This document shows positions 12,711 to 21,060 of a DNA stretch of 64,000 nucleotides, piece after piece. The notes below the pieces were generated by a model. The model searched no databases, was not told where the DNA came from, and saw only the letters and a list, made by a program, of their open reading frames with translations. Numbering within the stretch: the first letter of the stretch is position 1; each line of letters starts with the position of its first letter. Location of the stretch: NCBI GenBank assembly GCA_015065865.1, contig SVPM01000001.1:1-64000 (forward strand), in the 5' to 3' direction. The position numbers and the translations under genes were made by a program. Source of the stretch: Oscillospiraceae bacterium (lineage in GTDB: Bacteria; Bacillota; Clostridia; Oscillospirales; Acutalibacteraceae).

Positions 12711-13847
12711 ATGAAAATATTGATGATCCCCTCGTGGTATCCCACACCGCAAATGCCGATGTTGGGCACCTTTTACAAAGAGCAAGCCGAAGCGATGGCC
12801 GCCGCAGGCGCACAAGTCGCGGTGATCTATGCGGATGTCAACGGCCGTTTCAGCGGTAACGGCACCCACGTGTTTACCGAAAACGGTGTGTATACCATCC
12901 TTTGTCAAAAATTGAACGTCACCCCGCGGGTGGAGCGCGGACGCGTGTGGCAACGTACCGCTATGTTGCGAAAAGCGTTTCGGCATCTGTGCCGCGAGTG
13001 GGGACGTCCCGACGTGGTGAATCTCCGTTCGTCGTTGCAAGGCTACGAAGCGTTGGCACTTTGCCGCCGCGAGCAATTGCCGCTCTTTTTTATGGAGCAT
13101 TCCTCGGTGGTGCTCACCGAAGGGGAGAATACTGCCGCCCGTCGCCGTCTTACGGCGGTGATGCAGGCGGCGGGGGTGAACGCTTGTGTGAGCGAAGCGT
13201 TGCGAGCGGTGATGCAACCGATCGCCGATACGCGTGTGATTCCCGATCTGGTGGACGACGGTCGCTTTGTGCCGATGCCGCAGGACACGGGAGATACCTT
13301 CCGTTTCCGTGCGATGGGCCAACTGCGCCCCATCAAAGGGTACGACACCTTGATTGCCGCGTTTGCGACACTGTGTGAACGTACCGATCGTGCGGTTCGT
13401 TTGGAAATTGCGGGTGCGGGGGCTTTGCGTGAACAACTGCAGCAGCAGATCGCCGATGCGGGGCTTTCGGACGTGTGCCGCTTGGTGGGAATCATCCCGC
13501 GGGAGGAAACACCCCGCTTTATGAACGGATGTGACTGCTTTATCTGTTCCTCCCGCCACGAAACGCTCTCCTGTGTGCTGAATGAAGCCGCCGCCTGCGG
13601 CAAACCTCTCATCAGCACGCGTTGCGGCGGCCCCGCTGATATTATTACCGCCACGAACGGCTTGCTGGTGGCGGTGGACGACGTAGCCGCCATGGCCGAA
13701 GCGATGGAGCGTATGTTGTGTGAAGCGGAGCGCTATTCGCCCGAGGCGATTCGTGCCGAAACCGTTGCGCGGTTTGGTAAAGAGGCGGTCAGCCGCCGTT
13801 TGCTTGCGGCGTGTGAAGAAGCAATAGCGGGAGGTGCCGTGCATTGA
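12711..13847 (+). CDS. glycosyltransferase (GT4-like)
   Basis: N-term MKILMIPSWYPTPQMPMLGTFYKEQAEAM; FRFRAMGQLRPIKGYDTLIAAF; SRHETLSCVLNEAAACGKPLISTRCGGPADI. Confidence 0.88.
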   Translation: MKILMIPSWYPTPQMPMLGTFYKEQAEAMAAAGAQVAVIYADVNGRFSGNGTHVFTENGVYTILCQKLNVTPRVERGRVWQRTAMLRKAFRHLCREWGRPDVVNLRSSLQGYEALALCRREQLPLFFMEHSSVVLTEGENTAARRRLTAVMQAAGVNACVSEALRAVMQPIADTRVIPDLVDDGRFVPMPQDTGDTFRFRAMGQLRPIKGYDTLIAAFATLCERTDRAVRLEIAGAGALREQLQQQIADAGLSDVCRLVGIIPREETPRFMNGCDCFICSSRHETLSCVLNEAAACGKPLISTRCGGPADIITATNGLLVAVDDVAAMAEAMERMLCEAERYSPEAIRAETVARFGKEAVSRRLLAACEEAIAGGAVH

Positions 13848-14680
13848 ATCTGCCGATAACTCACAATCTCACAGCGCACACCGAAGGGGAACTGCTGTAT
13901 TACACCTTTCCTACGCTGGATGCCGTGCCGTTTGTGCGGCACGCCGTGTCCACCCGCTTGGGCGGTGTGAGCGAGGGGATCTTTGAAAGTATGAATTTGA
14001 GTTTCGGGCGGGGGGATGACCCCGTGCGTGTGCGGGAGAACTTTGACCGCCTATGCGGGGCGATCGGTGTGGACACCGATCGCATCGTGCTCTCTCGTCA
14101 GGAACACCACACCTTTGTGCGTAACGTCACAGCGGCGGATTGCGGCAAAGGCATCACCCGCGAGCGGGATTACGATGATTTTGACGGCCTGCTGACCGAT
14201 GAAGCAGGGGTGGTGCTGTGCACGCAATACGCTGATTGCGTGCCTCTCTTGTTTGCCGATCCGAAACGGCGGGTGGTGGGAACTTCTCACTCGGGTTGGA
14301 AAGGCACGGTGGCGGAAATGGGGCGTGTCACGGTGGAACGGATGGTGTCGGATTACGGTTGCCGCCGTGAGGATATCGTGGCGGGTATCGGCCCGTCCAT
14401 CGGCCCGTGTTGCTTCGAGGTGGATGAACCGGTATACGAGCGCTTTTCGGCGTTGGGTGTGTGGGATGACGCTTGTGTAAAACGAATGCCCAACGGCAAA
14501 TTTTACATTGATATGTGGCAGGTCAACCGCCGCATTTTGTTGGCGGCGGGACTCAAGGAGGAACATATCAGCGTGACCGATCTTTGCACCCGTTGCCGTC
14601 CCGATGTGTTTTGGTCGCATCGTGCCACCAACGGTGTGCGCGGAAGCCTTGCGGCGTTGATTTCAATAGGAACAGAGTAA
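13844..14680 (+). CDS. pgeF: peptidoglycan editing factor PgeF (laccase-domain/YfiH family)
   Basis: STRLGGVSEGIFESMNLSF, ADCVPLLFADPKRRVVGTSHSGWKGT, GPSIGPCCFEVDEPV; TTG start. Confidence 0.92.
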   Translation: MNLPITHNLTAHTEGELLYYTFPTLDAVPFVRHAVSTRLGGVSEGIFESMNLSFGRGDDPVRVRENFDRLCGAIGVDTDRIVLSRQEHHTFVRNVTAADCGKGITRERDYDDFDGLLTDEAGVVLCTQYADCVPLLFADPKRRVVGTSHSGWKGTVAEMGRVTVERMVSDYGCRREDIVAGIGPSIGPCCFEVDEPVYERFSALGVWDDACVKRMPNGKFYIDMWQVNRRILLAAGLKEEHISVTDLCTRCRPDVFWSHRATNGVRGSLAALISIGTE

Positions 14681-14683
14681 ACG

Positions 14684-14738
14684 ATCCCTTCATAGGATGG
14701 AGTGAGTACATCACCGATCCTATGGGGGGATAGTTTTT
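14684..14738 (+). promoter_or_regulatory. 15-bp hairpin + T5 tract overlapping dpaA ribosome-binding site
   Basis: ATCCCTTCATAGGAT (14684-14698) pairs fully (2 G-U) with ATCCTATGGGGGGAT (14717-14731), followed by AGTTTTT then ATG. Confidence 0.8.
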
Positions 14739-15614
14739 ATGCAAACCATTGAAACTTTTGCCGTGATAGGCGGCGACCTGCGCGCCGCCTATCTTGCCGG
14801 CTTATTGGCGCAGGACGGGTTCAAAGTCATTACATCGGGGTTGGACAGCACCGATCTGCCGCCCTGTGTTACCGGTTGTACCAATCTGACACAAGCGGTA
14901 TCACTGGCGGATTGCGTGGTGTTGCCTCTTCCGGTCACGACCGACGGTACCACGTTGAATGCACCGTTTTCGCGTGTACGCATCCAGTCGGAGCAGGTGT
15001 TGGGAGCGCTTTCGCCGTCGCAATTTGCGGTGGGCGGCGGTGTGCCTGCCGCGTGGTGTGAACAGGCGGCGGAAAACGGGGTCACGTTGCACGACTACTT
15101 ACAGCGGGAGGAGTTGGCACTGCTCAACAGCGTGCCCACCGCCGAGGGCGCGGTGCAACTGGCCATGGAGGAGTTGCCGGTCACTCTGCGCGGCGCGCGG
15201 GCACTGGTTACGGGGTACGGACGTGTGGCGCGTGCGCTGTGTTCGCTGCTTATTGCTATGGGAGCGGAGGTAACGGTGGCGGCACGGCGCTGTTCCGACC
15301 GCGCGGCGGCATCGGTTGCGGGGTGCTCCGCCGTAGAACTCGCGGCGGTTGCGGATGCAGGAGATTTTGACGTGATCTTCAACACCGTGCCGGCACTCGT
15401 ATTCGATGCCGCGCTTTTGAAAAAGCTGGAGCGTTCCACCTTGCTGATCGATCTGGCATCTCGCCCCGGCGGCGTGGATTTTGCGGCGGCGGCAGCACTG
15501 CAAATGAAAACCGTGTGGGCGTTATCCCTGCCGGGGCGGGTGGCACCGAAGAGCGCTGCCGATATTCTTCGGCAGACGGTGCTCAATATGTTGCGTGAGG
15601 AGGGACGGTTATGA
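14739..15614 (+). CDS. dpaA: dipicolinate synthase subunit A (SpoVFA)
   Basis: FAVIGGDLRAAYLAGLLAQDGFKV, VLPLPVTTDGTTLNAPFS, ALVTGYGRVARALCSLLIAMGAEVTVAAR. Confidence 0.93.
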   Translation: MQTIETFAVIGGDLRAAYLAGLLAQDGFKVITSGLDSTDLPPCVTGCTNLTQAVSLADCVVLPLPVTTDGTTLNAPFSRVRIQSEQVLGALSPSQFAVGGGVPAAWCEQAAENGVTLHDYLQREELALLNSVPTAEGAVQLAMEELPVTLRGARALVTGYGRVARALCSLLIAMGAEVTVAARRCSDRAAASVAGCSAVELAAVADAGDFDVIFNTVPALVFDAALLKKLERSTLLIDLASRPGGVDFAAAAALQMKTVWALSLPGRVAPKSAADILRQTVLNMLREEGRL

Positions 15615-16186
15615 GCGGATTACGTATCGGATGGGCGCTGTGCGGATCGTTTTGCACACTGGCAACCGTGACGGCGGAGATCGCCGAAACGGTGGCAGCA
15701 GGGCACACGGTGTATCCCATCTTCTCCGCACCGATGTGCGCGGTGGATACGCGTTTCGGCACGGCGGAACACTGGCGTATGCAGATAAGCGATCTGTGCG
15801 GACGTTCGCCCCTCACTACCCTCACCGAAGTGGAACCGCTCGGCCCGCGGGATATGCTGGACGTATTGGTGGTGGCACCTTGCACGGGCAGTACACTGGC
15901 ACGGCTGGCGGCGGGGGACAGCAGCGGTGCCGTGACACTGGCGGTAAAATCTCACCTGCGGCGTGAGCGGCCGGTGGTGCTTGCGGTATCTACCAACGAT
16001 GCGCTGGCAGGCTCCTTCCCGTCGATCGCCGCGTTGAAAAATCGCAAACACTACTATTTTGTACCGATGCGGCAGGATGCGCCCGTTGAAAAGCCGAATT
16101 CCTTGGTGGCGGATTTCTCGCGCATCGGCGATACGATTTACGCCGCACGGCAGGGGCGCCAACTGCAACCGCTGTTTTTGGGGTGA
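15611..16186 (+). CDS. dpaB: dipicolinate synthase subunit B (SpoVFB)
   Basis: IGWALCGSFCTL, VVAPCTGSTLARLAAGDSSGAVTLAVKSHLRRERPVVLAVSTNDAL flavoprotein motifs; follows dpaA. Confidence 0.93.
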   Translation: MSGLRIGWALCGSFCTLATVTAEIAETVAAGHTVYPIFSAPMCAVDTRFGTAEHWRMQISDLCGRSPLTTLTEVEPLGPRDMLDVLVVAPCTGSTLARLAAGDSSGAVTLAVKSHLRRERPVVLAVSTNDALAGSFPSIAALKNRKHYYFVPMRQDAPVEKPNSLVADFSRIGDTIYAARQGRQLQPLFLG

Positions 16187-16193
16187 AAAAGGC

Positions 16194-16230
16194 TCAAGGA
16201 GAATTTTCAAATTCTCCTTGACTTTTTTTT
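16194..16230 (+). terminator. intrinsic terminator after dpaB
   Basis: TCAAGGAGAATTT-TC-AAATTCTCCTTGA-C-T8. Confidence 0.93.
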
Positions 16231-16252: not shown

Positions 16253-16503
16253 AATAATGCAATCGGCGTTGAGGAAGTCCATTTGCGTTTGCCGCACAGA
16301 GAGGGATGCTCGATATTTTTTTCGGCTGAAAGGCATCCTGCAGAGTCAAGCGCAAAAAGCCGCTTCGGAGCCGTTGTCGCGAGGAGCGACACGCCCTGTC
16401 TGCGTTATCGGGCAAACGAGTGGGAGCCGTTTGCGGCTTCAATTTGGGTGGTACCACGGAGTTTCCGTCCCATATACGGGCGGGGACTCTTTCTATTTTT
16501 TAA
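16253..16503 (+). ncRNA. T-box riboswitch leader (alanine) upstream of alaS
   Basis: Stem I-like AGAGAGGGATGC...GCATCC, T-box GGGTGGTACCAC, terminator GAGTTTCCGTCCC-atata-CGGGCGGGGACTC plus T-rich tail, directly before alaS. Confidence 0.9.
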
Positions 16504-20956: not shown

Positions 20957-21060
20957 GGCTATGGTCGGTCACTGTGACCGTTCCGTGCTTGATGCAAAGC
21001 ATCAGGACGATGGTCCTCTGCTCACTTCGTTGGGCACGAACATCGGAAAAGTAGGGAGGA
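20957..21060 (+). ncRNA. structured rplS 5' leader, candidate L19 autoregulatory leader
   Basis: GGTCACTGTGACC-like and TTGATGCaaaGCATCAgg hairpins in ~110 nt between promoter and SD. Confidence 0.5.

Follow-up and report, generated by a model that had tools for sequence, protein, structure and literature searches.

The junction between pgeF and dpaA

The window (the whole 64-kb stretch of DNA that was analyzed) encodes both subunits of dipicolinate synthase, DpaA and DpaB, in one operon behind pgeF (Table 1). The dpaA gene makes the dipicolinic acid of the spore. The three gene names given in the initial annotation match Pfam, TIGR and NF models. As a codirectional upstream unit, pgeF could read through into dpaA, from which it is separated by 58 bp. 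A hairpin in this gap is the sole terminator candidate, and no other was found between the two genes in the sequence or by a terminator scan. Elsewhere in the window we identified a T-box leader upstream of alaS (16260–16475; Rfam RF00230, 69.7 bits, under the gathering score of 93) and, upstream of rplS (21007–21046), a region that only weakly resembles the leader of ribosomal protein L19 (27.4 bits against a gathering score of 36).

Table 1. Genes, promoter elements and RNA features of the pgeF-dpaAB region (positions in the window).
Feature	Position	Strand	Basis and remarks
pgeF	13844..14680	+	PF02578, TIGR00726; stop codon 14678–14680, 4 nt upstream of the hairpin
−35 element AC	14672..14673	+	Predicted; located in pgeF, at its 3' end; the motif AC-N17-CATAnnnTR is conserved ahead of dpaA genes
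Hairpin 5' arm ATCCCTTCATAGGAT	14684..14698	+	Overlaps promoter spacer and −10; expected to be absent from sigma-K-initiated RNA
−10 element CATAGGATG	14691..14699	+	Consensus CATAnnnTA; 17 nt after AC
Expected transcription start region	14703..14709	+	About 7 nt past the −10, in the hairpin loop; predicted from promoter geometry
Hairpin 3' arm ATCCTATGGGGGGAT	14717..14731	+	RNA fold
dpaA Shine-Dalgarno GGGGGGA	14724..14730	+	Within the 3' arm; predicted to be sequestered in read-through RNA
TTTTT tract abutting the dpaA ATG	14734..14738	+	Putative tail of a terminator acting on transcripts from pgeF
dpaA, dipicolinate synthase subunit A	14739..15614	+	PF16924 DpaA_N, NF006162; ATG at 14739
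dpaB, dipicolinate synthase subunit B	15611..16186	+	NF006161; same operon as dpaA
Ordinary dpaAB terminator, downstream of dpaB	16194..16221	+	Terminator scan; 12-bp stem, run of T

All 15 positions of the hairpin pair without interruption (7 A-U, 6 G-C and 2 G-U pairs) around a loop of 18 nt, and the 3' arm is followed by AG, TTTTT and then the ATG of dpaA. The initial annotation had described this arrangement exactly, including the coordinates, the two G-U pairs and the location of the dpaA Shine-Dalgarno sequence inside the 3' arm. The segment from 14670 to 14760 has a predicted folding energy of −35.0 kcal/mol, compared with −17.7 ± 3.2 kcal/mol in 200 dinucleotide shuffles (z = −5.5), none of which was as stable as the native sequence. 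By prediction, exposing the Shine-Dalgarno sequence would take 18 kcal/mol in read-through RNA from pgeF versus 6.5 kcal/mol in RNA starting at 14703–14709. In the predicted sigma-K RNA the dpaA start region is still paired with early codons, and opening of 14725–14741 would require 10.6 kcal/mol. Read as an intrinsic terminator, the structure would join a 15-bp stem with 6 G-C pairs and a long loop (18 nt) to a short U-tract (UUUUU) preceded by AG. The terminator scan did not list the hairpin at 14684–14731 because it permits loops of at most 8 nt.

A predicted sigma-K-type promoter overlapping the hairpin

The 5' arm had been noted in the initial annotation to resemble the CATA-type −10 of the mother-cell sigma factors, sigma-E or sigma-K. 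The element CATAGGATG lies inside the arm except for its last base, which falls just beyond it. This base is also the only departure from CATAnnnTA, and relatives often carry a G there ahead of dpaA. A sigma-K promoter should have an AC −35 located 16–17 nt upstream of a CATAnnnTA −10; here AC (14672–14673) precedes CATAGGATG by exactly 17 nt. The AC-N17-CATAnnnTR arrangement reached the full score in 49% of 126 distinct dpaA upstream regions compared with 0.16% of dinucleotide shuffles, and the threshold score was attained in 78 regions on the coding strand versus 3 on the reverse complement. Conservation of the AC/CATA arrangement upstream of dpaA extends across the order. Furthermore, the genome encodes SigK (L232; NF004471, 283 bits, cut-off 252), and best matches to SigE, SigF and SigG are likewise present. 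The motif alone does not identify promoters, because a pattern search of G000 returned 28 sites, a number not above the reversed control.

In C. difficile, dpaAB is transcribed by sigma-K, the −35 element is AC for sigma-K and ATA for sigma-E, and the −10 boxes of the two factors are very alike (PMC3789822). Because the −35 upstream of dpaA is AC, we assigned the candidate promoter to sigma-K, a choice that retains the mother-cell promoter of the initial annotation and drops its sigma-E option. The AC spacer of 17 nt, the conservation, the C. difficile precedent and the presence of SigK provide computational support for the sporulation promoter that the annotation had guessed. Once the uncertain step, the promoter now appears to be the firmest part of the annotation's two-part reading, in which read-through from pgeF is blocked and a transcript starting in the loop escapes. 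We infer a start at about 14706, in the loop, so that the sigma-K RNA would lack the 5' arm.

A strong hairpin and T-tract right before a start codon is also the classical layout of an attenuator. Transcription would then begin upstream, and the hairpin would be a regulated switch, possibly a riboswitch, in the dpaA leader. We consider this very unlikely given that the conserved sigma-K promoter places the start in the loop, that no Rfam match was found at the hairpin site, that no sequence apart from the promoter motif is conserved, and that the hairpin is mostly missing from loci with a divergent upstream gene or with one that ends in a terminator of its own.

Hairpin conservation and gene context in relatives

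The initial annotation had suggested examining hairpin conservation upstream of dpaA in relatives. The same-genus comparison comprised one genome, G001 (dpaA with 91% amino acid identity), in which 15 of 15 pairs are kept and none is broken. Thirteen pairs are unchanged; A14684-U14731 became G-C, a compensatory change, and C14687-G14728 became U-G, a consistent one. The loop and flanks diverged while stem pairing was kept, and TTTTT directly adjoins the stem. Promoter-nested hairpins with other arm sequences also recur in other relatives, as described below. The compensatory change, the recurrence in relatives and the z-score of −5.5 make a chance inverted repeat or an interspersed repeat element extremely unlikely, even though the 64 kb contain other uninterrupted stems of at least 14 bp, many of them G-U-rich. 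A repeat element was rejected, as the genome contains no further copy of the hairpin.

An inverted repeat across a −10 box is a typical operator feature, and the sigma-K genes of B. subtilis are co-regulated. The repeat could on these grounds be a palindromic DNA operator for a SpoIIID- or GerE-like sporulation regulator, overlapping the promoter. We regard such an operator as very unlikely to account for the data: pairing persists among relatives whose arm sequences differ, the stem accommodates G-U pairs and the replacement of C-G by U-G, and the presence of the hairpin tracks the context of the upstream gene, not the gene itself.

Arm sequences vary among the relatives, and the hairpin may block the Shine-Dalgarno sequence, terminate transcription, or do both. 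L013, L218, L316 and L322 have the layout of the window with different bases, with the Shine-Dalgarno sequence in the 3' arm and a T-run touching the start codon. The T-tract is as in the window in L002, L013 and L218 and is shortened to TTTT in L316 and L322. Another form is a clear terminator with the Shine-Dalgarno sequence further downstream, in which the −10 sits in the 5' arm (L073, L095 and L029) or in the terminator loop (L239 and L240). In L115 and L109, the −35 rather than the −10 is folded into the terminator. The sigma-K-initiated RNA of the nested forms would lack part of the structure. Terminator and Shine-Dalgarno lock appear separable, since some relatives carry the terminator only. 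As separate observations, the leader of L318 has a G+C-rich hairpin followed by TTTT between a sigma-K-type promoter and dpaA, which may be an attenuator, and dpaA alignments with one in-frame stop codon were obtained for G126, G165 and G243 (TGA), G276 (TAG) and G200 (TAA).

The terminator-only loci, together with the TTTTT behind the stem in the window, are what would be expected if the hairpin were simply the terminator of pgeF and its overlap with the promoter and the Shine-Dalgarno sequence a by-product of compact spacing, without a translational lock. We see this as possible though clearly the less likely reading. Against it, the Shine-Dalgarno sequence itself forms the 3' arm in the window and in G001, L013, L022, L131, L218, L208 and L316. 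Furthermore, the lock is present without a proper T-run in L208 and in L131, which comes from the culturable spore-former Caproiciproducens galactitolivorans, so sequestration alone remains there.

A hairpin serving as a guard against read-through should occur where read-through threatens and no other stop is available. Among loci with a good promoter, we scored a locus when its promoter segment paired with its own leader beyond its own shuffles (p ≤ 0.01) or when a terminator was nested around the −10. A tight context was defined as a codirectional upstream gene, called by a simple codon score, ending at most 60 nt from the −35 without a separate terminator, and was compared with all other loci. 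In the discovery set, nested hairpins were found at 10 of 14 tight dpaA loci versus 6 of 64 others (Fisher's test, 4.5e-6). A second, unrelated spore-type family (L171/L195) gave 5/7 versus 1/18 (2.2e-3). The rule was first noticed in these discovery data and was therefore tested on held-out loci, which provide the only clean test: 44 further dpaA loci from previously unused genomes, with thresholds unchanged. The held-out stretches contain too little dpaA, so the codon score used to call their upstream genes was trained anew on the first set. Under the combined criterion of lock or nested terminator, which was set after both sets had been seen, 6 of 9 tight loci scored versus 3 of 35 others (8e-4). 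The pairing criterion alone, at p ≤ 0.004, separated 4/9 from 0/35, the four being three nearly identical close relatives (L322, L325 and L327) and L316, which is related to them. Nearly all of the relatives are metagenome-assembled genomes.

The same measurement at the start of dpaB, inside the operon, served as a control and yielded 0/71 at p ≤ 0.01. Across all 78 dpaA promoters regardless of context, mean pairing between promoter and leader was not above that of reversed sequence (p = 0.31), and Shine-Dalgarno accessibility switches were not in excess (5 versus 5.9 ± 2.0 in swapped sequences). The pairing effect is restricted to a strong tail and to the tight-context subset. Such confinement is predicted if the hairpin is an insulator, yet it means that pairing is not a general property of dpaA. 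The comparative tests could have failed, and they lend computational support to both parts of the initial reading, blocked read-through and escape of RNA starting in the loop.

The second family, which was found via a pattern search, is a Cys-rich protein of about 267 aa (L171:1501-2377, corresponding to G000:C37:7811-8687, and L195). Its gene stands behind a pcrA-like helicase gene, and a hairpin over the Shine-Dalgarno sequence of this gene encloses a sigma-K-type promoter. A relative is present in 60 of 79 genomes. Searches of Pfam, NCBIfam and PDB gave no match for the family, which may represent a coat protein not described before. In the leaders of this family (L201–L230), a small stem, approximately TGAAGTTT...AAATTTCA, often recurs beyond the lock, just after the −10 at the expected start. 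YabG, the intended third family, was essentially absent from the genomes compared. We also observed AC-N17-CATAAGATG with an anti-Shine-Dalgarno sequence in the spacer at murA behind a murG-like ORF (L190:301-386 and L199:301-395), an arrangement that the two species of the genus share although the bases differ.

A probable self-bypassing insulator in sporulation

Sequence and comparison together reveal a hairpin, a conserved promoter motif and a dependence on gene context, and they indicate that the 58 bases probably unite the sigma-K promoter of dpaAB with an insulator against read-through. Polymerase arriving from pgeF would copy both arms, and the hairpin would form. The read-through transcript would then end at TTTTT, just upstream of the dpaA ATG; if polymerase ran past this tract, the hairpin would hide the dpaA Shine-Dalgarno sequence. 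In the sporulating mother cell, sigma-K polymerase would bind AC and CATAGGATG and start near 14706 in the loop. Lacking the 5' arm, its RNA would neither terminate nor hide the Shine-Dalgarno sequence. The expected outcome is dpaAB expression limited to late sporulation at a junction too tight for a separate terminator. As with the exact start site, we infer the termination efficiency and the extent of the translational block, and a ribosome finishing pgeF would cover part of the 5' arm, which counts against the model, as do the long loop, the short U-tract with its preceding AG and the start-region pairing left in the sigma-K RNA.

Promoter-disarmed read-through hairpins have precedents. In late genes and homing endonucleases of phage T4 (I-TevI, I-TevII, I-TevIII, segB, soc and e; mobE in Aeh1), early and middle read-through RNAs fold the ribosome-binding site into a hairpin, and the late promoter is positioned to yield transcripts without the 5' arm (PMC2988022). 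The dpaA junction is similar in having the Shine-Dalgarno sequence in the 3' arm, a codirectional upstream unit and a promoter whose RNA, given the predicted start, would lack the 5' arm. It differs in using a cellular sigma-K promoter instead of a phage late promoter and in the T-tract, with which the hairpin seems to double as a terminator for the upstream gene. In B. subtilis, a hairpin of 20 or more bp at sigG (spoIIIG) was proposed to keep read-through RNA from spoIIG untranslated; RNA initiated at the sigG promoter is unable to form it (PMC5942855). Both are sporulation genes with a read-through hairpin that their own promoter escapes or, for dpaA, is predicted to escape. However, sigG is a forespore gene that has a sigma-F/G promoter and follows a sporulation operon, whereas dpaA follows pgeF and is a mother-cell gene of the sigma-K class, and the dpaA-type design reappears across many genera depending on gene context. 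The C. difficile dpaAB operon shares the sigma-K promoter with an AC −35, but the passages describing it mention no promoter-merged hairpin (PMC3789822). Among open-licence papers, we found no report of such a hairpin at sigma-K genes or of the context rule. Thus, the principle is established for T4 and proposed for sigG; its sigma-K version and the context rule appear to be new.

The recurrence among relatives suggests, with less assurance than for the dpaA junction itself, that self-bypassing insulators are widespread in Clostridia and evolved repeatedly. In them, the sigma-K −10 would sit within a terminator or a Shine-Dalgarno lock, either in an arm or in the loop, and they would serve late mother-cell genes packed behind others, with several unrelated genes per genome. 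If so, a developmental promoter and protection from read-through would be one element. At dpaA, such an insulator would explain how a strictly developmental gene can stand 58 bp behind another gene without leakage. It would also give a simple sequence rule for locating such elements and supply an easily cloned self-bypassing insulator. The context rule is testable: a short space would call for an insulator merged with the promoter, and elsewhere the insulator would be separate or absent. Cellular sigma-K genes would thereby come under a principle that is known from phage T4 and has been suggested for sigG of B. subtilis.
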